Source: Mytilus galloprovincialis
Taxonomy: Eukaryota; Mollusca; Bivalvia; Mytilida; Mytilidae
Direction of reading: 5' to 3'
NCBI RefSeq assembly: GCF_965363235.1
Contig: NC_134843.1
Location: 43,781,035-43,845,034 of the forward strand
DNA: 64,000 bases
Positions 8,506-41,334 of this stretch are shown piece by piece. The notes beneath the pieces are model-generated. The model saw only the letters and a program-made list of their open reading frames with translations. It made no database searches and was not told the DNA's origin. Position numbers and translations under genes: made by a program. How positions within the stretch are numbered: the stretch's first letter is position 1; each line of letters begins with the position of its first letter.

Positions 8506-8765
8506 GATACGGTGCTTTTTGTCCGCGATTTGCTTTTTGTCCGCTTTTGCTTTTTGTCCGATTATTTTGCTTTTTGTCCGATACTTTTGCTTTTTGTCCG
8601 TTGCTTTTTGTCCGTTTTGCTTTTTGTCCGATAATTTTGCTTTTTGTCCGATACTTTTGCTTTTTGTCCGTTGCTTTTTGTCCGTTTTGCTTTTTGTCCG
8701 ATAATTTTGCTTTTTGTCCGACACTTTTGCTTTTTGTCCGTTTGCTTTTTGTCCGTTTTGCTTTT
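8506..8765 (+). repeat. Left terminal short-repeat array of foldback 1
   Basis: About fourteen copies of 'tgctttttgtccg' separated by 1-8 bp variable spacers (for example 'ataatttt' and 'atactttt'). They form a higher-order alternation that recurs in inverted form at 17895-18159. The array produces long but meaningless open frames on both strands. Confidence 0.85.
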
Positions 8766-9165
8766 TAGCTCACCTGGACCATAGGACTAAGTGAGCTTTT
8801 CTCATTTTCTCATTATTCGTCGTCGTCATTAATTTTTACAAAAATCTTCTCTTCTGAAACTACTGGCAAAGTTAAAGCAAACATGGCCAAAATCATCCTT
8901 AGGGTATTTAGTTTCAAAAAAGTATCCGATGACCCCGCCCAATAATTAAGATGGCCGCAATGTCTAAAAGAAGAGCATCGCATAAAATGTAGATTTTGGC
9001 TTATATATCTGAAACAAAACCATAGAGACAATCTAACAAGGGATAAGAACATTTCGCCTCATAAAATAATGTGGACCAGTCAGAACTTTTCATGTGGGAC
9101 AATATGAGCTCTTAATTTAAAAAAAAGTGGGACAATCGGGAATAAGCCCTACAGACTTGAGCAAT
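8766..9165 (+). mobile_element. Helentron-like family C fragment
   Basis: It begins 'agctcacctggaccatagg' and continues 'actaagtgagctttt', an imperfect hairpin. A short 'cgtcgtcgtc' run follows, then 'aattttacaaaaatcttct...gaaactactgg...caaa', 'gatgaccc' and 'aagatggccgc'. The same order occurs in the long copy at 31810-33982. It sits directly in the short-repeat array of foldback 1, after a T-run. The right limit is approximate. Confidence 0.6.
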
Positions 9166-10060
9166 TCTAAAATAAACACTGTTGATGTATCTCTTTTAAA
9201 TTTTCTATTAAAAAGTGTTTTACATTTACGAATGCACTATATTGTATCTGTATCTAAAATATTAAACGCATTTATTTCGTGATAGAAATTAAGTAAATGC
9301 TTAAGTAACCATTTTATTACTTTTCCCCCTCTTTTCGAGTTTGTCAAACAAAAATAAACTACTTTGTTGAAAATGCTGTTGTGTTGACCAAAGTTTCCTT
9401 AATCTTATTACTTGAATAACCTCGAACTTCCTCGTCATTTGGATATAGTTGCTAAATAATTCCGAAATGTATGGATTAATACAGTTTATCTAAATAAATA
9501 GCTACACATGTATTACGTAAACTTTGTGATAGTGTTCCAAAAATGAAGTTTGTTTGTTTGTTATATTTGTAATATTTGTAATGTTTAAGAAAAATAAAGT
9601 TGTTGGAAATATGACGAAAATATTACCAGACTTAAAAAAGTTTTTTTTTAACTGAAATGTTGCAAAATATTTAGGAGCGACTGTCAATCGGCCATTCGCA
9701 TATAAGTGCAAATGGTGACTATATATTATTAGCGGGAAGAAGAAACTGTGCGTTTAAGCAATAACATGTCGTAAATGTGTGCACTTCCACATGTAGCAAA
9801 CGCCGACACCATTTAACATAATGATAAAACTATTCAAACGAGAAAACCATTGATTTACAAAACACTATACGACAAACAAATACAGAAACAAACAACAACT
9901 ATTGAATTACAGATTGAAACTCCGTTCCTGACTTATTCGTATGATTATCATATATAATATTAAGCGCGGTTAAACATCAATTTCAAATTTCATTAACGAA
10001 ACCATCACTCAAGGATTATTTGATTTGATAAATTTCTAAACTATTCTAAAGTTTCGAGCA
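9166..10060. other. Interior of foldback 1, no recognised element
   Basis: AT-rich sequence without coding signal or recognised repeat, between the family C fragment and the family A foldback. Confidence 0.45.
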
Positions 10061-11088
10061 TATAAAAAAGAAGATGTGGTATGATTGCCAATGAGACAAC
10101 TATCCACAAAAGACCAAAATGACACAAACATTAACAACTATAGGTCACCGTACGACCTTCAACAATGAGCAAAGCCCATACCGCATAGTCAGCTATAAAG
10201 GCCCCGATAAGACAATGTAAAACAATTCAAACGAGAAAACTAACGGCCTTATTTAAGTAAAAAAATGAACGAAAAACAAATATGTAACACATAAACAAAC
10301 GACAACCACTGAATTACAGGCTCCTGACTTGGGACAGGCACAGATTTAAATAATGTGCCGGAGTTAAACATATTAGCGGGATCCCAACCCTCCCCCTAAC
10401 CTGGGACAGTGGTATAACAGTACAACATAAGAACGAACTATAAAAATCAGTTGAAAAAGGCTTAACTCATCAGATAGACACAAATACAAGTGGACGTGGC
10501 CGGGTACTTATACATCCCGACACAAAAAGTCACAATGAACAGATCTGAGAGTACTCGCAGTTATCTGACAGCTATTTCAAAGCCACTAACAACTAATAAA
10601 AAGTCATGCCTCTGAGACTTAACGTTCGTTTAAGTCTTTGAATATCCCATGTATTCTACAAATTGGTGTACGTACACCATTGCTCACACGTTTGAGGATG
10701 ACAGACTAACTTACGACCAGAATGAATAAGAATTAGTCTATATAACAAGATCTAAAATATTTCTAGTGTAAAAGACTTTAACCTCGCCACATTATTTATG
10801 TATGTGCCTGTACCAAGTCAGGAGCCTGTATATTCAGTGGTTGTCGTTTGTTTATGTGTTACATATTTGTTTTTTCATTTATTTTTTTGACATAAATAAG
10901 GCCGTTAGTTTTCTCGTTTGAATTGTTTTACATTGTCTTATCGGGGCCTTTTATAGCTGACTATGCTGTATGGGCTTTCCTCATTGTTGAAGGCCGTACG
11001 GTGACCTAATGCTGTTAATGTCTGTGTCATTTTGGTCTTTTGTGGATAGTTGTCTCATTGGCAATAATACCACATCTTCTTTTTTATA
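10061..11088. mobile_element. Family A foldback, 1028 bp, complete-looking
   Basis: Arms of about 290 bp are inverted copies: 'tataaaaaagaagatgtgg' with 'tatgattgccaatgagacaac' running inward to 'cctgacttgggacaggcac' on the left, and the reverse complement from about 10795 to 11088 on the right. The central 450 bp is unique, with 'accctccccctaacctggg' near the left arm. There is no open frame of note. I found no clear target duplication. The arm sequence recurs singly at 3463, 23590, 41800 and 43260, and as an inverted pair inside foldback 2 (29505-29835 and 38190-38535). Confidence 0.75.
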
Positions 11089-17894: not shown

Positions 17895-18159
17895 TTTATA
17901 TCGGACATAAAGCAAAATTATCGGACAAAAAGCAAAACGGACAAAAAGCAAAAGTTTCGGACAAAAAGCAAAATAATCGGACAAAAGGCAAAACGGACAA
18001 AAAGCAAAAGTTTCGGACAAAAAGCAAAATAATCGGACAAAAGGCAAAACGGACAAAAAGCAACGGACAAAAAGCAAAAAGTTTCGGACAAAAAGCAAAA
18101 TTATCGGACAAAAAGCAAAAGCGGACAAAAAGCGAATTGCGGACAAAAAGCACCGTATC
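17895..18159 (-). repeat. Right terminal short-repeat array of foldback 1
   Basis: Inverted counterpart of 8506-8765: repeated 'cggacaaaaagcaaaa' units ending in 'caccgtatc', directly followed by the AAAGGCAT duplication. Confidence 0.85.
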
Positions 18160-27223: not shown

Positions 27224-28741
27224 TTATTGAAGACGAAAAAGGTGCGCCAATCCATTTTTCTTATAACATAATAGTAGTTTCTTGTGATGCTTGTCATAGA
27301 AAAGTCCACGTGGATGTCGTATCGCATTAACTTCGTCAATAAGTACCTTCTGATGCTTACCATCATGGGAAATTATTATGACGACCCCGGTATCGGGTCC
27401 AGCTACAAAAATATTTCCATCATTATCTACGGCTATCGGAGCTGAATTCTTTTTTGCTTTGAGTCGGTCGTCGCTTATCGTCCATATTTGTTTTCCTGAT
27501 GTATCAGAACAATACAGTTTATTGTTGTGATCAGCCGTGTAGTATATCCTCTTTTTATATACAGCAATATTTCCGATTCCGGCTATATCGACGTGTATTT
27601 TTCGTACCACCTCTTTATCAATACTAACTTCCTTTATTCCAACGTCATGATCTACAAAATATAGCTTTCCATCATCATAGCAGATACCACGACTGTAATT
27701 TTCAATATACTTTGTAAGTTTTGACTCAAATTGGTTGGTTTTTATGTTTATTATTCTTATCAGTCTTGGCGAAAAAGATACAGCAACCTCATCCATACCA
27801 ACAGCAGTTATATAAAATGGCTTTTCATCTAACGGCAACTCCTTTAGATAGGTCCCGTTCTCATGATGTATGACTAGTCGCTTATTACTACTGTCAATAA
27901 ATACTACATTTTTATTAGGTAAAATAACGCAGCCGTATAATTCCATCAGATGTTTTGCTTGGTGAATGTTAAAAGTGCGTTCAATTTTGAGGACATTTTT
28001 GGTAATATCTGAATCAATCGGCCGCTCTATCTGTGCTTCATGTAATGACGAAGTAGAATATGATCTCAATTTTGACATAAATTTGATCTCTCCCAATGTA
28101 TTGTCCGCCGAGGAAAAGAAGGGATTAATCTGAAAACCGATTTTATATTTCATATTACTTTCTTCCAAAAATGAATTTCGTTCTTTGAATGCATTTTCTT
28201 CAGCCATTTTCATTTCAATAAAAAATTGTTTATCTGTACCAGATCGTTTAAGGGCGAAAAGTCTTTCCTGTATTTTGCAAATTCTCAACTCCTGTTGTAA
28301 TAAATCTTGTTCTGCCTGTTTCACTTTATCATTACGGGTTTTCAATTCACACAGACAACTTTCTTGTTGTATATAAATTCGTTCTATAATCTTTTGAACT
28401 TCCTTTCGGATTGTTTTTTCAACTTCTTGTAAGCTTGATAAATTATGTTTCTGGATTTGTAGGCTGTCTTTTACGGTTTGCAAGAGATCTAGAATGTCCA
28501 GTTCAAGTTTGCCCATTGCTGTTGATGTTTTTACTTTTTGTGCTGCAACTGCAATTTCAAAGATTTGGTCCTTGCATTTTAAATGATCCAAACGATTACA
28601 CACCATACACAATAATTTATCATGACATCGGCAAAAGAAGACAATTTCCTTCTGATGTATCTTGCACAACAGTTCATCGGATTCAGTCGATGGATTGTTT
28701 AAGAAAGTGGACTCACTGTGGTTTCCCCTTTTCTCTGCCAT
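27224..28741 (-). CDS. TRIM-like protein: B-box, coiled coil and NHL-like propeller, no RING
   Basis: 505 residues in one uninterrupted exon. I chose the second ATG (28741): upstream on this strand 'ttttaattgtttcttcag' is a good splice acceptor ending 14 bases before it, so the longer 525-codon reading would translate intron. Residues 26-57 form a B-box: C26-x2-H29-x7-C37, C39/H40/D41, C45-x2-C48, H53, C56. About 70-190 is a charged heptad-rich coiled coil. About 260-505 consists of repeated beta-blade-like units (for example GKLYFVDHD, KRIYYTADHNNKLYCSD, GNIFVAGPDTGVVI), typical of the NHL/TRIM2-3-like propellers of expanded molluscan TRIM genes. With no RING, ubiquitin ligase activity is not expected on its own; an adaptor or innate-immune role is inference. 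The stop TAA lies inside CAATAAATG, overlapping a poly(A)-type hexamer. Confidence 0.85.
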   Translation of the reverse strand: MAEKRGNHSESTFLNNPSTESDELLCKIHQKEIVFFCRCHDKLLCMVCNRLDHLKCKDQIFEIAVAAQKVKTSTAMGKLELDILDLLQTVKDSLQIQKHNLSSLQEVEKTIRKEVQKIIERIYIQQESCLCELKTRNDKVKQAEQDLLQQELRICKIQERLFALKRSGTDKQFFIEMKMAEENAFKERNSFLEESNMKYKIGFQINPFFSSADNTLGEIKFMSKLRSYSTSSLHEAQIERPIDSDITKNVLKIERTFNIHQAKHLMELYGCVILPNKNVVFIDSSNKRLVIHHENGTYLKELPLDEKPFYITAVGMDEVAVSFSPRLIRIINIKTNQFESKLTKYIENYSRGICYDDGKLYFVDHDVGIKEVSIDKEVVRKIHVDIAGIGNIAVYKKRIYYTADHNNKLYCSDTSGKQIWTISDDRLKAKKNSAPIAVDNDGNIFVAGPDTGVVIIISHDGKHQKVLIDEVNAIRHPRGLFYDKHHKKLLLCYKKNGLAHLFRLQ

Positions 28742-29024
28742 TAAAAGGCGTGTATCTGAAGAAACAATTAAAATCAAAATGTAAAGATAAATGCAGAACA
28801 AAATGACGAATCACACGGTACTCAAACTTGAGAGAGGTTGAAAGGCCTTCACTTTTTCTATACACCTACAAACAACTAATAGTATTAAAACAGTACAACA
28901 ATAAAGAAGAAAAAAAGGAAACCGCTTCATCCTCGTATGATCTAGACGTTTAGTTCTCTGTTCGAAAACATTGACAAATACTTTCAAATCGGTATAATAG
29001 GACGCTGCTTAAACTGAATTAGAA
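28742..29024. other. 5' region of the TRIM-like gene
   Basis: Contains the probable acceptor just upstream of the start codon. A 5' non-coding exon probably lies further right on the plus strand, possibly beyond foldback 2. No promoter motif can be supported. Confidence 0.4.
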
Positions 29025-29032
29025 GTTTATAA
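29025..29032 (+). repeat. Left 8-bp target duplication of foldback 2
   Basis: GTTTATAA abuts the terminal TGGACGTC. The right partner, 39125-39132, is CTTTATAA (7 of 8 identical). Confidence 0.65.
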
Positions 29033-29034
29033 TG

Positions 29035-29255
29035 GACGTCAAGTTGGTTACTTATTCCCTATTCCTTATTCGTTACCTATTCCCTATTCGTTACCTATTC
29101 GTTACCTATTCCCTATTCCCTATTCGTTACCTATTCGTTACCTATTCCCTATTCCCTATTCGTTACCTATTCGTTACTTATTCCCTATTCCCTATCGTTA
29201 CCTATTCGTTACTTATTCCCTATTCCTTATTCGTTACTTATTCGATTTTTAATAT
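29035..29255 (+). repeat. Left terminal short-repeat array of foldback 2
   Basis: Alternating 11-12 bp units 'cctattcgttac' and 'cctattccctatt'. They generate an apparent protein of repeating RYLFVTYSLFPI, which is not a gene. Confidence 0.85.
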
Positions 29256-29889
29256 CCTTCCCCCTTTTTAATTGTTTATACTCTTATATCTGGTAATAGT
29301 TCTAAATTTGTTGAGGTAAAATGATCTTTTTATGACCTATTTATATGTGTTTGTGCTCAACCGATCCTTTTACTTTATGTTCGATACTCATTTGATCCTT
29401 ATTTGCCTTGTTGATTTTTATACGTTCTACCTTTTAACTGCTTTATGTCCGTATGTTTGAAGATGGATCTTGGTTCGAAGCGATGAAATCACCGTGTTAG
29501 CGCTTGTATAAAAAAGAAGATGTGGTATGATTGCCAATGAGACAACACCCCACAAAAGACCAAAATGACACAGAAATGATCAACTACAGGTCACTGTACA
29601 GCCTTCAACAATGAGCATAGCCCAAACCGTGTAGACCCTATAAAAGGTCCAGACATGACAATCTCAAACAATTCAAACAACAAAACTAATGGCCATATTT
29701 CATATACAAAAAAATAAACAGAAAACAAATATGTAACACAAAAACAAACGATAACTACTTAATTTCAGGCTCTTGTCTAGGGACAGGCACATACTAACAT
29801 AATGTGGTGGGGTTAAACATGTTAGCAGGGTGTACATGGTTTCGGAGCATGCTATTACCTTGTTTAATTCGTTCCATCACTCGCTTATA

Positions 29890-32800
29890 ATTCGCTTATA
29901 ATATGTGTATCATATGTTGCACCTTTTAAAACATGATTTTCAATTGTTTTGTTGTCTCTGGTGGTAGATTTGGGTTCTTAGAGGTGATATAACTCTCTAA
30001 GCGCATATGTACCCTTTCCAGCACTCGGATAATACCCTGTTAAATATTCGTTACTTATTCGCTTTTAATACGTTTGTTGTACGTTGCACCTTTTAGAAAA
30101 GAATTTTTAAATGTGTTCATATCTCTGTTGGTAATAATGTGTTCTTATAGATGAAATACCCCTATTATCGCGTATGTACCCGTTCCAGCGCTCGGATAAT
30201 ACCCTGTTACTTATTCGTTCCTTATTCGCTTTTAATGCGCGGGGTATACGTTGCACCTTGAAATAAATCGTTTTTTAATTGTTTTCATGTCTCTGGTGGT
30301 AACAATGTGTTCTTAGAGATGAAATGACCCTACTAGAGCGCATGTACCCGTTCCAGAGGTCGATTGATACCCTGTTACCTATTCGTTATCTATTCACTTA
30401 TCATACGTTTGTTGTACGTTGCACCTTTTAGAAAATGATTTTCAATTGTACCCATGTCTCTGGTGGTAACAATGTGTTCTTAGAGATGAAATGACCCTAT
30501 TAGCGCGCATGTACCCGTTCCAGCGCTCGGTTAATACCCTGTTACCTATTCGTTACCTATTCGTTACCTATTCACTTATCATACGTTTGTTGTACGTTGC
30601 ACCTTTTAGCAAATGATTTTCAATTGTGTCCATGTCTCTGGTGGTAACAATGTGTTCTTAGAGATGAAATGACCCTATTAGCGCGCATGTACCCGTTCCA
30701 GCGCTCGGTTAATACCCTGTTACCTATTCGTTACCTTTTCGTTACATATTCACTTATAATACGTTTGTTGTACGTTGCACCTTTTAGAAAAGGATTTTCA
30801 ATTGTACCCATGTCTCTGGTGGTAACAATGTGTTCTTAGACATGAAATGACCCTATTAACGCGTAGGTACCCGTTCCAGCGCTCGGTTAATACCCTGTTA
30901 CCTATTCGTTACCTATTCGTGACTTATTCGCTTTTAATACGTTTGTTGTACGTTGCACCTTTTAGAAAAGGATTTTCACTTAAGTTCATATCTCTGGTGG
31001 TTATAATGTGTTCTTATAGATGAAATACTACTATTAGCGCGTATGTACTCGTTCCAGCGCTTGGATAATACCGTTACTTTTTCGTTCCTTATTCGCTTTT
31101 AATGCGCGGGGTATACGTTGCACCTTGAAATAAATCGTTTTTTAATTGTGTTCATTTCTCTGGTGGTAAGAAAGTGTTCTTAGAGATGAAATGACCCTAT
31201 TAGCGCGCATGTACCCGTTCAGCGCTCGGTTAATACCCTGTTACCTATTCGTTACCTATTCACTTATGAGACGTTTACTATACGTTGCACCTTTTAGAAA
31301 AGGATTTTCAATTGTGTCCATGTCTCTGGTGGTAACAATGTGTTTTTAGGGATTAGATTACCCTATTAGCGCGTAGGTACCCGTTCCAGCGCTCGGTTAA
31401 TACCCTGTTACTTATTCGTAACTTATTCGCCTATAATACGTTTGTTATAAGTTGCAACTTTTAGAAAAGGATTTTCAATTGTGTCCATGTCTCTGGTGGT
31501 AACAATGTATTTGATAGATGAAATACCCCTTTTAGCGCGTATGTACCCGTTCCAGCGCTCGGATAATACCCTGTTACTTATTCGTTCCTTATTCGCTTTT
31601 AATGCGCGGGGTATACGTTGCACCTTGAAATAAATCGTTTTTTAATTGTGTTCATGTCTCTGGTGGTAACAATGTGTTCTTAGAGATGAAATGACCCTAT
31701 TAGCGCGTATGTACCCGTTCCAGCGCTCGGATAATAACCTGTTACTTATTCGTTCCTTATTCGCTTTTAATGCGCGGGGTATACGTTGCACTTTAAATAA
31801 ATCGTTTTTAAGCTCACCTGGCCGAAAGGCCAAGTGAGCTTTTCTCATCATTTGGCGTCCGGCGTCCGTCGTCGTCGTCCGTCGTCGTCGTCCTGCGTTA
31901 AATTTTACAAAAATCTTCTTCTTTGAAACTACTGAGCCAAATTTAACCAAACTTGGCCACAATCATCATTGGGGTTTCTTGTTTAAAAAATGTGTCCGGT
32001 GACCCGGCCAACCAACCAAGATGGCCGCCATGGCTAAAAATAGAACATAGGGGTAAAATGCAGTTTTTGGCTTATAACTCAAAAACCAAAGCATTTAGAG
32101 CAAATCTGACAGCAGTAATATTGTTCATCAGGTCAAGATCTATCTGCCCTGAAATTTTCAGATGAATCAGACATTTCGTTGTTGGGTTGCTGCCCTGAAA
32201 AGGTAATTTTAAGGAAATTTTGCTGTTTTTGGTTATTATCTTGAATATTGTTATAGATAGAGATAAACTGTAAACAGCAATAATGTTCAGCAAAGTAAGA
32301 TCTACAAATAAGTCAACATGACCAAAATAGTCAGTTGACCACTTTAGGAGTTATTGCCCTTTATAGTCAATTTTTAACCATTTTTCGTAAATCTTAGTAA
32401 TCTTTTAGAAAAATCTTCTCCTCTGAAACTACTGGGCCAAATTTAACCAAACTTGGCCATAATCATCATTGGGGTATCTTGTTTAAAAAATGTGTCCGGT
32501 GATCCGGCCAACCAACCAAGATGGCCGCCATGGCTAAAAATAGAACATAGGAGTAAAATGCAGTTTTTGGCTTATAACTCAAAAACCAAAGCATTTAGAG
32601 CAAATCTGACAGCAGTAATATTGTTCATCAGGTCAAGATCTATCTGCCCTGAAATTTTCAGATGAATCAGACATTTCGTTGTTGGGTTGCTGCCCTGAAA
32701 AGGTAATTTTAAGGAAATTTTGCTGTTTTTGGTTATTATCTTGAATATTGTTATAGATAGAGATAAACTGTAAACAGCAATAATGTTCAGCAAAGTAAGA

Positions 32801-34092
32801 TCTACAAATAAGTCAACATGACCAAAATAGTCAGTTGACCACTTTAGGAGTTATTGCCCTTTATAGTCAATTTTTAACCATTTTTCGTAAATCTTAGTAA
32901 TCTTTTAGAAAAATCTTCTCCTCTGAAACTACTGGGCCAAATTTAACCAAACTTGGCCATAATCATCATTGGGGTATCTAGTTTAAAAAATGTGTCCGGT
33001 GATCCGGCCAACCAACCAAGATGGCCGCCATGGCTAAAAATAGAACATAGGAGTAAAATGCAGTTTTTGGCTTATAACTCAAAAACCAAAGCATTTAGAG
33101 CAAATCTGACATGGTTATTATTGTTCATCAGGTCAAGATCTATCTGCCCTGAAATATTCAGATGAATCAGACATTTCGTTGTTGGGTTGCTGCCCCTGAA
33201 ATGGTAATTTTGAGGAAATTTTGCTGTTTTTTTGCTATTATCTTGAATATAATTATAGATAGAGATAAACTGTAAACAGCAATAATGTACAGCAAAGTAA
33301 GAACTAAAAATAAGTCAGCATGACCAAAATAGTCAATTGACCCCCTAAGGAGTTATTGCCCTTCATAGTCAATTTTTAACAATTTTCTTAAAATTTGAAG
33401 ATTTTCAATAACATTTTCCACAGAAAGTACTGTTATAGATAGAGATAATTGTAAGCAGCAAGACTGTTTAGTAAAGTAAGATCTACAAACACATTACCAT
33501 CACCAAAACACAATTTTGTCATGAATCCATCTGTGTCTATTGTTTAATATGCACATAGACCAAGGTGAGCGACACAGGCTCTTTAGAGCCTCTAGTTGGT
33601 TATTATCTTGAATATTATAATAGATAGAGATAAACTGTAAAACAGCAATAATGTTCAGCAAAGTAAGATCTACAAATAAGTCAAATGACCAAAATTGTCA
33701 GTTTACCCTTTAAGGAGTTATTGCTTTTTATAGTCATTTTTTAACAATTTTCATAAATTTTTGTAAATTTTTGTAAATTTTTAGAATCTATTTACCACTG
33801 TAATTACTGGGCCAAGTTCATTATAGATAGAGATAATTGTAGCAAGAAAAATTTCCAGTAAAGTAAGATCTACAAACACATCATTATCACCAAAACACAA
33901 TTTTGTCATGAATTTATCTGTGTCCATTGTTTAATATGCACATAAACCAAGGTGAGCGACACAGGCTCTTGAGAGCCTCTAGTTAATTGTGTGCATGTCT
34001 CTGGTGGTAACAATGTGTTCTTAGAGATGAAATAACCCTATTAGCGCGTGTGTACCTGTTCCAGCGCTCGGCTAATACCTTGTTACTTATTC
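29890..34092 (+). repeat. Left satellite arm of foldback 2
   Basis: About twelve monomers of 165-180 bp, recognisable by 'cgttccagcgctcgg', 'taccctgtta', 'cctattcgttacctattc', 'gtttgttgtacgttgcacc' and 'gtctctggtggtaacaatgtg'. It is interrupted at 31810-33982. Each monomer contains one to three copies of 'cctattcgttac', the same unit that builds the terminal array. Confidence 0.85.
31810..33982 (+). mobile_element. Helentron-like family C element with internal 500-bp triplication
   Basis: It starts 'aagctcacctggccgaaag' with 'gccaagtgagctt' (a perfect-ended hairpin), followed by a GTCY/GTC microsatellite ('gtccgtcgtcgtcgtcc'). It ends 'aaggtgagcgacacaggc' then a stem-loop 'aggctcttgagagcct' and CTAG. 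The subterminal GCTCACCT is inverted at the other end as AGGTGAGC. It interrupts a T-run of the satellite (T|T), as known for Helentrons. Inside, a unit of exactly about 500 bp is repeated from about 31905, 32405 and 32905, the first two nearly identical. A further 390-bp partial copy after 33595 repeats the 3' end, so the terminal stem-loop occurs twice. Open frames of 70 and 73 codons inside are repeated with the unit and are not genes. Confidence 0.65.
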
Positions 34093-37000
34093 TTATTTCA
34101 AGGTGGAACGCATAGCACGCGTATTTAAAGCGAATAAGGAACGAATAAGTAACAGGGTATCAGTATTGCGCTGAAACGAGTATATATGCGCTAATAGGGT
34201 TTTTTTCACTTCAGAGAACACATAATTACCACCAGAGACATGAAAGAAATAGATAATCGATTTATTCCAATGTGCAACGTATACCACGCGTCTTAAAAGC
34301 GAATAAGGAACGAATAAGTAACAGGGTATCAGTCGAGCGCTGAAACGGGTACATATGTTTTATTAGGGTTATTTCAACTCTAAGAACCGAGAGTTACCAC
34401 CAGAGACACAAAAATATTTCTTTTTTAAAGTGCAACGCATAACACACGTTTTAAAAGCGAATAAGGTAACGAATAAGTAACAGGGTATCAGTGTAGCGCT
34501 GGAACGCGTACATGCGCGCTAATAGGGTCATTTCATCTCTAAGAACACATTGTTACCACTAGAGACATGAACACAATTAAAAAACGATTTATTTCAAGGT
34601 GCAACGTATACCGGGCGCATTAAAAGCGAATAAGGAACGAATAAGTAACAGGGTATTATCCGAGCGCTGGAACGAGTACATACGCGCTAATAGGGTCATT
34701 TCATCTCTAAGAACACATTTTTACCACTAGACACATGAACACAATTCAAAATCCTTTTCTAAAAGGTACAACGTACAACAAACGTATTAAAAGCGAATAA
34801 TTAACGAATAGGTAACGCATAGGTAACAGGGTATTAACCGAGCGCTGGAACGGGTACATGCGCGCTAATAGGGTCATTTCATTTTTAAAAAAACATTGTT
34901 ATCACCAGAGACATAGACACAATTGAAAATCCTTTTCTAAAAGGTGCAACGTACAACAAACGTATTATAAGTGAATAGGTAACGAATAGGTAACGAAAAG
35001 GTAACAGGGTATTAACCGAGCGCTGGAACGGGTACATGCGCGCTAATAGGGTCATTTCATCTCTAAGAACACATTGTTACCACCAGAGACATGAACACAA
35101 TTCAAAAACGATTTATTTCAAGGTGCAACGTATACCCCGCGCATTCAACGCGAATAAGGAACGAATAAGTAACAGGGTATTATCCGACCGCTGGAACGAG
35201 TACATACGCGCTAATAGGGGTCTTTCGTCTATAAGAACACATTATTACCACCAGAGACATGGACACAATTGAAAATCCTTTTCTAAAAGGTGCAACGTAC
35301 AACAAACGTATTATAAGTGAATAAGTAACGAATAGGTAACAGGGTATTAACCGAGCGCTGAAACGGGTACATGCGCGCTAATAGGGTCATTTCATCTCTA
35401 AGAACACACTGTTACCACCAGAGACATGGGCACAATTGAAAATCCTTTTCTAAAAGGTGCAACGTACAACAAACGTATTATAAGTGAATAGGTAACGAAT
35501 AGAAAACAGGGTATTAACCGAGCGCTGGAACGAGTACATACGCGCTAATAGTGGTATTTCATCTATAAGAACACATTATAACCACCAGAGATATGAACTT
35601 AAGTGAAATCCTTTTCTAAAAGGTGCAACGTACAACAAACGTATTAAAAGCGAATAAGTAACGAATAGGTAACGAATAGGTAACAGGGTATTAACCGAGC
35701 GCTGGAACGGGTACATGCGCACTTATAGGGTCATTTCATCTCTAAGAACACATTGTTACCACCAGAGACATGGGCACAATTGAAAATCCTTTTCTAAAAG
35801 GTGCAACGTACAACAAACGTATTATAAGTGAATAGGTAACGAATTGGTAACAGGGTATTAACCGAGCGCTGGAGCGAGTATATACGCGCTAATAGGGGTA
35901 TTTCATCTATAAGAACACATTATTACCACCAGAGACATGGACACAATTGAACATCCTTTTCTAGAAGGTGCAACGTACATCAAACGTATGATAAGTGAAT
36001 AAGTAACGAATAGGTAACAGGGTATTAACCGAGCGCTGAAACGGGTACATGCGCGCTAATAGTGTCATTTCATCTCTAAGAACACATTGTTACCACCAGA
36101 GACATGGACACAATTGAAAATTCTTTTCTAAAAGGTGCAATGTACAACAAACGTATACCCCGCTCATTGAAAGCGAATAAGGAACGAAAAAGTAACAGGG
36201 TATTATCCGAGCGCTGGAACGAGTACATACGTGCTAATAGGGATATTTCATCTATAAAAACACATTATTACCACCAGAGATATGAACTTAATTGAAAATC
36301 CTTTTCTAAACGGTGCAACGTACAACAAACGTATTAAAAGCGAATAAGTAACGAATAGGTAACGAATAGGTAACAGGGTATTAACCGAGCGCTGGAACGG
36401 GTACATGCGCGCTAAAAGGGTCATTTCATCTCTAAGAACACACTGTTACCACCACAGACATGGGCACAATTGAAAATCCTTTTTTAAAAGGTGAAACGTA
36501 CAACAAACGTATACCCCGCGCATTGAAAGCGAATAAGGAACGAAAAAGTAACAGGGTATTATCCGAGCGCTGGAACGAGTACATACGTGCTAATAGGGAT
36601 ATTTCATCTATAAAAACACATTATTACCACCAGAGATATGAACTTAATTGAAAATCCTTTTCTAAACGGTGCAACGTACAACAAACGTATTAAAAGCGAA
36701 TAAGTAACGAATAGGTAACGAATAGGTAACAGGGTATTAACCGAGCGCTGGAACGGGTACATGCGCGCTAATAGGGTCATTTCATCTCTAAGAACACACT
36801 GTTACCACCACAGACATGGGCACAATTGAAAATCCTTTTTTAAAAGGTGAAACGTACAACAAACGTATTCTATGTGAAAAGGTAACGAATAGGTAACAGG
36901 GTATTAACCGAGCGCTGGAACGGGTACATGCGCGCTAATAGTGTCATTTCATCTCTAAGAACACATTGTTACCACCAGAGACATGGACACAATTGAAAAT

Positions 37001-38150
37001 TCTTTTCTAAAAGGTGCAATGTACAACAAACGTATACCCCGCGCATTGAAAGCGAATAAGGAACGAAAAATTAACAGGGTATTATCCGAGCGCTGGAACG
37101 AGTACATACGTGCTAATAGGGATATTTCATCTATAAAAACACATTATTACCACCAGAGATATGAACTTAATTGAAAATCTTTTTCTAAACGGTGCAACGT
37201 ACAACAAACGTATTAAAAGCGAATAAGTAACGAATAGGTAACAGGGTATTAACCGAGCGCTGGAACAGGTACATGATCGCTAATAGGGTCATTTCATCTC
37301 TAAGAACACATTGTTACCACCAGAATTAACCGAGCGCTGGAACGGGAACATGCGCGCTAATAGGGTCATTTCATCTCTAAGAACACATTGTTACCACCAG
37401 AGACATGGGTACAATTTAAAATCCTTTTCTAAAAGGTGCAACGTACAACAAACGTATTATAAGTGAATAGGTAACGAATAGGTAACAGGGTATTAACCGA
37501 GCGCTGGAACAGGTACATGCGCGCTTATAGGGTCATTTCATCTCTAAGAACACATTGTTACCACCAGAGACATGGACACAATTGAAAATCCTTTTCTAAA
37601 ATGTGCAACGTACAACAAACGTATGATAAGTGAATAGTTAACGAATAGGTAACGAATAGGTAACAGGGTATTAACCAAGCGCTGGAACGGGTACATGCGC
37701 TCTAATATCATTTCATCTCTAAGAACACATTGTTACCACCAGAGACATGGACACAATTAAAAACGATTTATTTCAAGGTGCAACGTATACCCCGCGCATT
37801 AAAAGCGAATAAGGAACGAATAAGTAACAGGTTATTATCCGAGCGCTTGAACGGGTACATACGCGATAATAGGGGTATTCATCTATAATAACACATTATT
37901 ACCAACAGAGATATGAACACAATTGAAAATCCTTTTCTAAAAGGTGCAACGTACAACAAACGTATTAAAAGCGAATAAGTAACGAATATTTAACGGTATT
38001 ACCCGAGCGCTGGAACGGGTACATATACGCTTATAGAGTTATATCACCTCTAAGAACCCAAATCTACCACCAGAGACAACAAAACAATTGAAAATCATGT
38101 TTTAAAAGGTGCAACGTATGATACACGTATTATAAGCGAATTATAAGCGA
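34093..38150 (-). repeat. Right satellite arm of foldback 2
   Basis: About 23 monomers in the opposite orientation to the left arm ('ggtaacagggtattaaccgag', 'cgctggaacgggtacatgcg', 'gtgcaacgtacaacaaacg'). Local higher-order duplications are visible: 36104-36460 and 36460-36830 are near copies, and 36983 onward is a third. The arm has twice as many monomers as the left one, so it has expanded or the left has contracted. Confidence 0.85.
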
Positions 38151-38779
38151 GTGATGGAACGAATTAAACAAGGTTATAGCATGCTCCGAAACGATGTACA
38201 CCCTGCTAACATGTTTAACCCCACCGCATTATGTTAGTATGTGCCTGTCCCTAGACAAGAGCCTGAAATTAAGTAGTTATCGTTTGTTTTTGTGTTACAT
38301 ATTTGTTTTCCGTTTATTTTTTTGTATATGAAATACGGCCGTTAGTTTTGTTGTTTGAATTGTTTGAGATTGTCATGTCTGGACCTTTTATAGGTGACTA
38401 CACGGTTTGGGCTATGCTCATTGTTGAAGGCCGTACAGTGACCTGTAGTTGATCATTTCTGTGTCATTTTGGTCTTTTGTGGGGTGTTGTCTCATTGGCA
38501 ATCATACCACATCTTCTTTTTTATACAAGCGCTAACACGGTGATTTCATCGCTTCGAACCAAGATCCATCTTCAAACATACGGACATAAAGCAGTTAAAA
38601 GGTAGAACGTATAAAAATCAAATAAGGATCAAATGAGTATCGAACATAAAGTAAAAGGATCGGTTGAGCACAAACACATATAAAAAGGTCATAAAAAGAT
38701 CATTTTACCTCAACAAATTTAGAACTATTACCAGATATAAGAGTATAAACAATTAAAAAGGGGGAAGGATATTAAAAAT

Positions 38780-39122
38780 CGAATAAGTAACGAATAAGGA
38801 ATAGGGAATAAGTAACGAATAGGTAACGATAGGGAATAGGGAATAAGTAACGAATAGGTAACGAATAGGGAACAGGGAATAGGTAACGAATAGGTAACGA
38901 ATAGGAAATAGGGAATAGGTAACGAATAGGTAACGAATAGGGAATAGGGAATAGGTAACGAATAGGTAACGAATAGGGAATAGGTAACGAATAGGTAACG
39001 AATAGGGAATAGGGATTAGGTAACGAATAGGGAATAGGGAATAGGTAACGAATAGGTAAATAATAGGGAATAGGGAATAGGTAACGAATAGGGAATAGGG
39101 AATAAGTAACCAACTTGACGTC
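38780..39122 (-). repeat. Right terminal short-repeat array of foldback 2
   Basis: Inverted counterpart of 29035-29255, longer by about 120 bp. Units are 'taacgaatagg' and 'gaatagggaatagg'. The 117- and 151-codon open frames here are repeat artefacts. Confidence 0.85.
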
Positions 39123-39124
39123 CA

Positions 39125-39132
39125 CTTTATAA
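39125..39132 (+). repeat. Right 8-bp target duplication of foldback 2
   Basis: CTTTATAA directly outside the terminal CGTCCA. It matches the left octamer at 7 of 8 positions. Confidence 0.65.
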
Positions 39133-39344
39133 TTTTAAAAAACGATACATTTGTCCCGAAGTAGAGGCCTAGAAGAGGTAAAACGGTCACTTCATATGTG
39201 AAGATCAAACACGAGCAGACCGTGTCATATTTGTGTGTACTTAAATAACAATCAAAAGAATAAAATAAGTAAACTGATTTATTCCTATTGAAAGTAAGAA
39301 GATACCAAAAAGATAAGAAAAATTGTAAGTCAAATTAGGATACA

Positions 39345-39600
39345 TTACCCGCATTCTACAAAACACTTCACAGATTTCACCAGAACCCCACATAATGTTA
39401 AGACATCAGGTGATTCAGAAGGGTAAGCAGGTCTTATTTCACCTGTTATATCACGGCAAGTATAAGTTCGGTGATACATTGAATTGGGTAATAAGTGAGA
39501 AGTGGACGTGAACGTGGTAACAAAATTTTGTCGAGTTTTATCAGAAAGTTCGTGTTCAATCGTTATTAACGTTTCACCTATTTGTACGAATAACATATAT
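39345..39600 (-). mobile_element. Penelope-like tail fragment
   Basis: On the minus strand 'gacctgcttacccttctgaatcacctgatgtc' and '...atgtggggttctggtg' correspond to the tail read at 48900-48965. An 83-codon open frame crosses it, but its sequence is explained by the repeat. Old and broken. Confidence 0.5.
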
Positions 39601-40395
39601 GAAACAGACTCGTGTTACGTGTATAGTATATTATGAACGATTTCATAAAAATCGTATCTTACGGTACAATAATGTTTAAATAATCATCGTTATAGAAACT
39701 TATCCGCTACGTCGCCAGGTAAACTGCATTTGCGACCGTCAAATCTACAATTGACGGTGGCAACTCTTTAACTACAGTACTGTTATTCCTTAATTTTCCG
39801 GACTTATTCATAAACTATTTGAATTAGGATTTTTTCATTATTAATGTAGTTTGCAAGCTTTTGAATTTCATATCATATCTTACTTCTAAAATTGAAGGAA
39901 ATTTTAGACTTTTGATTTGGAAAAGACAAAGATGTATAATTCAAATGACAGCTAAATAGTAAAGGATGTTATGAAAAGAACTATTTTCATCCTTGATGCA
40001 ACACATGTTTAAAATTCGTATGCAGGCATTCAATATTTCTTTTGTATAAAAATATCTTAAATATTTTCATCATGAAAAACTCTATTTATAGGAACACATC
40101 ATCACTGATGCATTACATTTTAAAGATTGAAATCAGTCAGGATAGCATTACATTTTAAAGATTGAAATCAGTCAGGATAGTTGTTAAATACTTCCTAGTT
40201 TTTAGCATTTTAAGAACAAATATTGTTACCAGCATAAAAAGGTATAAAATAAAAGCTGAATATTTTGACTTATATATTATTACTAATTAATTTCCTGCAA
40301 ACAATTACAATTTTGTTTATTTCACCAAGAACGAAAAAGACCAAAAACCATAACAAAACTAGTAATAAATGTTTAAACATAATTATAAGAACTGG

Positions 40396-40560
40396 AAGAC
40401 AATATATTGCGATATAAATCATTATCGATTCAAGACAATAAATTGCGATATAAATCATTATCAATTCAAAACAATATATTGCCGCGATATAAATCAGTAT
40501 AGATTCAAGACAATATATTGCGATATAAATCATTATCGATATAAATCATTATCGATTCAA
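40396..40560 (+). repeat. Tandem repeat, about 36-bp unit
   Basis: Four to five copies of 'gacaatatattgcgatataa' plus 'atcattatcgattcaa'. The open frames on both strands are artefacts. Confidence 0.8.
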
Positions 40561-40864
40561 GAATTACGTTTGTTGGTTGTTGAGTGGTTTTGGAAAATAA
40601 ATCTACTGAGGAATTATTTAAAAAGATTATGATAAATGTTTATATAGGAATTTAAATTTAAACACAAAATGATGCATCAGTGATTACATCCCAGCTCCTT
40701 TGTTCCAACCAGCTCCTTTGTTCCAACCAGATCACCCCAGTTTAAGTTTCTTTGTTATGCATGCTTTCCTTTGTTCTGTAACATTTTGGCGGGAATGTCA
40801 AATCCAGTATAAAACTTATAATTAATTATACGGAGAAGACTATCTATCAAAATTCACGTAGAAA

Positions 40865-40945
40865 AAACCCAGTGTATATGCTGGGATTCGAACTCAAGAC
40901 CTTAAGCATATAAAGCCACGACACATACCACTTCACCAGGACGAC
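40865..40945 (-). repeat. tRNA-like / SINE-head fragment
   Basis: On the minus strand 'tggtgaagtgg' fits an A-box and 'gagttcgaatccc' fits a B-box, at the right spacing. The sequences that should form the acceptor stem do not pair, so it is not a functional tRNA. It is probably the head of a tRNA-derived SINE or a tRNA relic. Confidence 0.5.
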
Positions 40946-41334
40946 TGGATACGAACTATCAGAAATCTAACATACTTAAAGGAAGCAAGATATTTTTATA
41001 ACTGGGGCGAGTTGGATGACTTTTATTCAGTGGGGTTTAAATCCTTTTCGTTTAAAAATAAATGAGTTGTCAGACTGATTGTGCAATTTGATTTTACACT
41101 TTTTTAAAGTTGGGCGAGCCGGTTACAAGAGTGGGGCGATTTTTTCATAAAGTGGCGATTGGCCAGTGGGGCGAGTTGACATTGTTTGATATCAACTCAT
41201 CGTGTTAGGGGGTCATAAAGGGTATACATCATATAGTAATATATAAAGTATATTATAATGGTTGTGTGGCGTTCTAACTAGATTTTATGAATTGTAAATG
41301 GTTTTTCGTCTTATCTAAAACAGCTGGGATGTAA

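Follow-up and report, generated by a model that had tools for sequence, protein, structure and literature searches.

What is a 10-kb stretch of mussel DNA that reads, module by module, as its own mirror image? Such a foldback lies within the 64,000-nucleotide window of Mytilus galloprovincialis DNA analysed here, and the original prediction, made from the letters of the window, took it for a single, nearly perfect palindrome whose survival was notable. We conclude with high confidence that the segment at 29032-39125 belongs, as a single copy, to a dispersed family of non-autonomous foldback DNA transposons whose inverted arms are filled with a satellite. Because hundreds of matching ends occur across the chromosomes, the segment is not an isolated, unstable palindrome, and it is no error of assembly either.

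To delimit the family, we searched the 1.385-Gb genome (331 contigs, the window belonging to contig C6) with the 25-bp terminus of the element. Allowing up to three mismatches, we found 352 forward and 353 reverse matches, 705 in all, while the reversed pattern used as a control gave 0 and 0. Exact ends preceded by A numbered 173 (90 + 83) and were present on all 14 large contigs. When neighbouring exact ends lay within 15 kb of each other (n = 43), they converged (+-) in 34 cases, as against three ++, five -- and one -+. Pairing, which drew on these 173 of the 705 ends, yielded 40 end pairs within 45 kb with a median length of 8,850 bp and a range from 352 bp to 43.9 kb, although the longest intervals may not be single elements. 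With 705 termini in the genome, and with neighbouring exact ends converging at element-like distances, the palindrome is thus not a solitary survivor.

Copies of the family also carry a target-site duplication. In 17 two-ended copies, the nine bases outside ATGGACGTC were perfectly repeated in nine, repeated with one mismatch in three, and not repeated in the remaining five. Our sample includes eight further copies with two ends in which each arm contains satellite and the 9-bp duplication is perfect; in one of these (L057/L079/L054) an arm is likewise interrupted by an insert, and most other interiors were read partly. For one copy on C2 (e9), the joined flanks minus one 9-bp repeat aligned unbroken, at 92% identity, to window positions 10060-10332. 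This segment is a copy of a dispersed repeat, family A, and represents a paralogous empty site for e9. A match spanning the empty site was obtained for three of the 11 copies tried (e9, e18 and e21), e18 and e21 likewise matching relatives of the family A repeat. At another copy (L057/L054; C4, about 35.233-35.239 Mb) the 9-bp duplication is ATAATGGAC and lies inside sequence resembling the family's own terminus. Three copies on contigs C1, C14 and C9 (L020, L055 and L056) have an identical 22-base outer flank, and therefore seem to sit nested in another dispersed repeat, at one and the same site. Helitron and Helentron carriers of satellite repeats are not known to make a target-site duplication; we rejected membership in that group, which the 9-bp duplications contradict.

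The anatomy of the window copy bears out the mirrored modules that had been described for it. The foldback is present where it was first placed, at 29033-39124, and extends to 29032-39125 once the terminal base is counted. Module mapping gave the order terminal array, a 268-bp segment that we call U250, half of a family A repeat and satellite on the plus strand, followed by satellite, half A, U250 and array on the minus strand. Self-alignment agreed: among the alignments listed for 28001-41000, the best BLAST match of the sequence to its own reverse strand covered 1,671 columns at 94.7% identity. Long terminal inverted repeats thus make up most of the element, and monomer mapping of the satellite placed tandem repeats inside them. 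The same order, from terminus through array, U250 and half A to satellite, was found at 45 of 54 loci (18 of the 26 chosen by terminus, 27 of the 28 chosen by similarity to U250), a set from which six loci overlapping others or the window had been removed and in which L018 and L019 both show a single short copy. This short copy (L018; C1:101170103-101170454) measures 352 bp and consists of the array and a scrap of U250. It has a perfect 9-bp duplication, so that ends and array may suffice for movement.

Outside the satellite, the two arms of the window copy correspond module by module. The left terminus, ATGGACGTCAAGTTGGTTACTTATTC, occupies 29032-29057 (+) and is the one recovered genome-wide; the right terminus, at 39100-39125 (-), has a single terminal base altered (ATGGACGTC on the left versus GTGGACGTC on the right). 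The left terminal array, built of the short units GTTACCTATTC / CCTATTCC, spans 187 bp (29058-29244, +), and the right one is longer, about 330 bp (38780-39110, -). U250, predicted to be a unique and almost identical segment, lies at 29244-29511 (+) and 38521-38780 (-) and is indeed identical at 259 of 260 positions, apart from an 8-bp gap; its 3' half looks like a degenerate monomer of the satellite. Half of family A, a dispersed repeat that has inserted into the left arm at 29512-29889 (+), recurs at the equivalent place in the right arm (38142-38520, -) with 370 of 378 positions identical. Taken together and with the satellite excluded, U250 and half A are 98.6% identical between arms (629/638). 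Module mapping located other half family A copies in the window at 10066-10380 and 10777-11083.

The satellites themselves are less symmetric. Their monomers, about 167-178 bp long, fill 29890-31811 and 33983-34092 (+) on the left and 34100-38141 (-) on the right, with 13 full or partial monomer matches versus 25, in keeping with the twofold difference (12 versus 23) claimed earlier. The 2.2-kb insertion that had been noticed in one arm interrupts the left satellite at 31812-33982 (+; 2,171 bp). It is a dispersed repeat with three tandem copies of about 500 bp, flanked by duplicated TTAA at 31808-31811 and 33983-33986, and upon its removal in silico the monomer continues, with 168/181 identity to an intact stretch. 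Fragments of this repeat were also found near several other family copies.

At the centre, the arms had been expected to meet near 34092 with essentially no spacer. A head-to-head satellite junction does lie there, at 34080-34100, but the two satellites are out of register where they meet, position 167 of the monomer facing position 56 with 20 nucleotides between them. In the folded strand, the centre forms a hairpin whose central loop measures about 35 nucleotides (-41.6 kcal/mol, z -6.3, equalled by none of 200 shuffles). Since the arms differ in array length, satellite number and register, the window element is not a near-perfect palindrome. The window type of junction was found again on other chromosomes. 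Among eight junction loci, the best matches to that of the window and picked by similarity, seven including the window joined monomer position 167 to 54-56 over 20-28 nucleotides, on either strand. The exception, L003, has a different central join, and L078 and L079 have yet other joins; we take this to mean that one ancestral junction spread and that others exist. Because the central junction recurs on other chromosomes, it is neither a local inverted-dimer junction, as had been suggested for 34092, nor the seam of a mirrored contig. A separate locus (L082; C4:42518500-42527500) contains two consecutive foldbacks, or one rearranged, and its satellite switches orientation several times.

How might such an element move? 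Each arm consists of a terminal array of short units, a partly monomer-like segment, a dispersed repeat that has inserted there and the array of satellite monomers, and in the window copy the two satellites abut head to head, no distinct middle domain lying between them. In the mechanism that we propose, a transposase made elsewhere and acting in trans would bind the ends, and the element would be excised and reinserted by cut-and-paste, duplicating 9 bp of the target. The 9-bp duplication agrees with the length for the Mutator (Mutator-like element, MULE) superfamily. This length is not exclusive to that superfamily; the duplication made by the Drosophila foldback Galileo is 7 bp. Profile searches for PF10551 (MULE) and PF04500 (FLYWCH), in each of which 150 of 324 candidates were scored, gave at least 140 and at least 89 matches in the genome, and three of the 140 MULE matches lay no more than 60 kb from an end among the 173. 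As no transposase was found within the family ends among these matches, a Mutator-like enzyme stays inferred; with the 9-bp duplication as evidence and the nematode family Tm1 as precedent, the transposase acting on the family is probably of this type.

Several observations weigh against a transposon so described. Five of the 17 copies, the window copy included, lack the 9-bp duplication. The window flanks share just the word TTTATAA, at 29026-29032 (terminal A included) and 39126-39132, out of register and with no clean 9-bp duplication; six of nine positions differ in register, and the window copy's own target-site duplication is decayed. None of the 140 MULE and none of the 89 FLYWCH matches fell inside the 40 paired intervals, given the 150 of 324 candidates scored and the 173 of 705 ends paired. 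The sole MULE less than 20 kb from a listed end, on C13 and 15 kb from a right end, was rejected as a transposase partner, with no family terminus in the 6 kb around it. Finally, both transposition and motif binding are read from sequence.

Other candidates for a coding partner were likewise set aside. The C13 end nearest the MULE just mentioned is a normal family end. A 23-kb pair on C1 has inserts inside, with a 622-amino-acid frame that looks by eye like a reverse transcriptase (16 kb of the interior read). On C8, a variant terminus adjoins a 148-amino-acid frame from a family of 78 matches; by eye, the other listed places are not near listed ends, and Pfam returned nothing. In the stretches read of a C12 copy without satellite beside one arm, and of a C4 copy sharing part of its interior, the longest frame was 152 amino acids. 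These frame readings come from outside six paired intervals of 13.5-44 kb.

These results leave some room for a foldback transposon moved by a non-Mutator transposase, as Galileo is by a P-type enzyme, with a convergent foldback shape. We consider this possible but doubtful. The lack of MULE or FLYWCH matches within the 40 paired intervals fits it, as does the occurrence of the foldback shape in different superfamilies, according to the portions of PMC3169594 and PMC4079207 available to us. On the other hand, Tm1, which makes 9-bp duplications, includes elements with a Phantom/Mutator-like transposase (PMC3169594), and most foldbacks seem to fall among Mutator-like elements (PMC4079207).

The arms offer a clue to what a transposase might recognize. 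The motif GTTAC[CT]TATTC recurs through both terminal array and satellite, with 26 occurrences on the plus strand in the left arm and 48 on the minus strand in the right arm (74 in total), none reversed, and none in the remaining 54 kb of the window. Present in array and satellite and in one orientation per arm, it is likely a reiterated transposase-binding site, a candidate suggested by Galileo, in which such sites lie within the tandem repeats of the long ends (PMC3688188, as far as its accessible text goes). U250 scored z 3.9 and 5.1 relative to shuffles when aligned with two doubled monomers, whereas half A as a control gave 0.9 and -0.9. The 5' half of U250 alone gave z -0.9 and 1.0, and the resemblance is therefore confined to the 3' half. 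Tentatively, the satellite could contribute to the working of the transposon: terminal array, satellite and decayed U250 would derive from one unit with a putative binding motif, more sites would make better ends so that arrays grow, and the arms would be kept alike by copying. An ordinary genomic satellite merely captured by the transposon, with independent arrays elsewhere, is in our judgement unlikely. Free arrays could exist, as the satellite search scored 40 of 2,514 candidates; yet both arrays fetched as distant from listed ends (2/2) carry family arms, and U250 resembles the monomer, though its 5' half alone does not. A literature search for the ApaI satellite as a Mytilus comparison found nothing.

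We compared U250 plus half A among 42 arm sequences, from loci chosen by similarity and with overlapping loci removed. The median difference was 1.84% within an element (14 elements) versus 2.82% between elements (847 comparisons), and in 5,000 rounds of label shuffling the within-element mean was never as low (1.97% versus 2.85%). In one element (L063/L064) the two arms share a 9-bp gap that is present in none of the other 40 arms; other indels are confined to one arm, such as 8 bp in the left arm of the window copy. Copying between arms would best explain this likeness in U250 and half A, with shared descent or the similarity-based choice of loci remaining as alternatives. We rejected long-separate A and B arm lineages: when 11 arms were typed by junction polarity, they did not sort, differing by 2.30% within and 2.39% between types (25 comparisons each). 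The satellite behaved differently. The nearest relative of a monomer (n = 238) lay in the same arm 86 times (expected 10.7), in the opposite arm 12 times (8.1) and in another element 140 times (219.1). The excess within arms indicates that the satellite grows locally, for which within-arm tandem duplication may be the route. These 238 monomers gave no clear sign of satellite exchange between the two arms of an element (12 versus 8.1 expected), which speaks against general arm-to-arm copying.

The same comparison bears on whether the locus arose recently and on the spot, by an inverted duplication or as an inverted-dimer product found nowhere else. In favour of this, the window arms, which differ by 1.4%, are mutually nearest among the 42; however, the mate was nearest for just seven of 28 arms, both window arms among them, and many other loci have these ends, this order of modules and this central junction, making such an origin highly improbable. 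Since arms of different elements differ by a median of just 2.8%, the identity of the window arms needs no special explanation. A mirrored or collapsed contig is equally hard to credit: assembly of long inverted satellite arrays is difficult and the locus is known here from the assembly alone, but satellite number and array length are unequal between the arms, an 8-bp indel and the 2.2-kb insertion also distinguish them, the flanking sequence is unlike on the two sides, and the same architecture recurs at other loci.

Two features of the window lie outside the element. A 528-amino-acid open frame at 27224-28810 (-) matches B-box and beta-propeller models weakly, with scores under the Pfam cut-offs. 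It starts at a distance of 222 bp from the element, which therefore sits just upstream of it. Arrays of the same short units (TGCTTTTTGTCCG and its complement) occur in opposite orientation at 8513-8766 and 17898-18152, about 9 kb apart.

Inverted repeats built of short tandem units are familiar from Drosophila FB/NOF. Tetris of Drosophila virilis, compared by description, is apparently a non-autonomous foldback for which no autonomous copy was found; like the mussel family, it has tandem repeats (about 220 bp) inside its terminal inverted repeats, part of the tandem-repeat sequence is also present in the terminal domain, and its target-site duplication is 8-10 bp versus 9 bp here (PMC4079207, in the portions available). 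Unlike the mussel element with its head-to-head satellites, Tetris has a middle domain, and it lives in a different host; the three structurally complete copies reported for it (PMC4079207) compare with 12 of 17 tested copies bearing a 9-bp duplication (at most one mismatch) here. The Tm1 Mutator/Foldback family of root-knot nematodes shares composite terminal inverted repeats, 9-bp duplications and non-autonomous members, and its reiterated motif of about 14 bp recalls the 11-bp motif described above. In contrast to our family, Tm1 includes elements encoding a putative transposase, and a satellite of this size is not mentioned in the accessible text of PMC3169594. Galileo, of the P superfamily, also has long inverted repeats with internal tandem repeats, and the binding sites in these served as the model for our reading of the motif, whereas its P-type transposase differs from the Mutator-like one proposed here (PMC3688188). 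In bivalves, Helentron/Pearl-type elements, the mussel element MgE being named among them, also disperse satellite-like repeats, but they belong to the Helitron line, unlike the mussel foldback family with its long inverted arms and 9-bp duplication (PMC7492417, as far as available). No foldback family in Mytilus or other molluscs was described in the titles or abstract openings searched; the available text of bivalve papers mentions foldbacks once or twice each, and in PMC7492417 the word refers to Tetris.

In conclusion, our study adds a large foldback family in a mollusc. The foldback class itself is already known, and the satellite-filled arms are the point of interest. If the satellite is indeed a working part, the family would be a natural example in which selection for transposition acts on a satellite that occurs in foldback arms and nowhere else. 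Provided that it carries binding sites, the mussel genome would offer many natural arrays of varied length in which to test selection for transposition, and many arm pairs in which to measure exchange between the arms of long inverted repeats.

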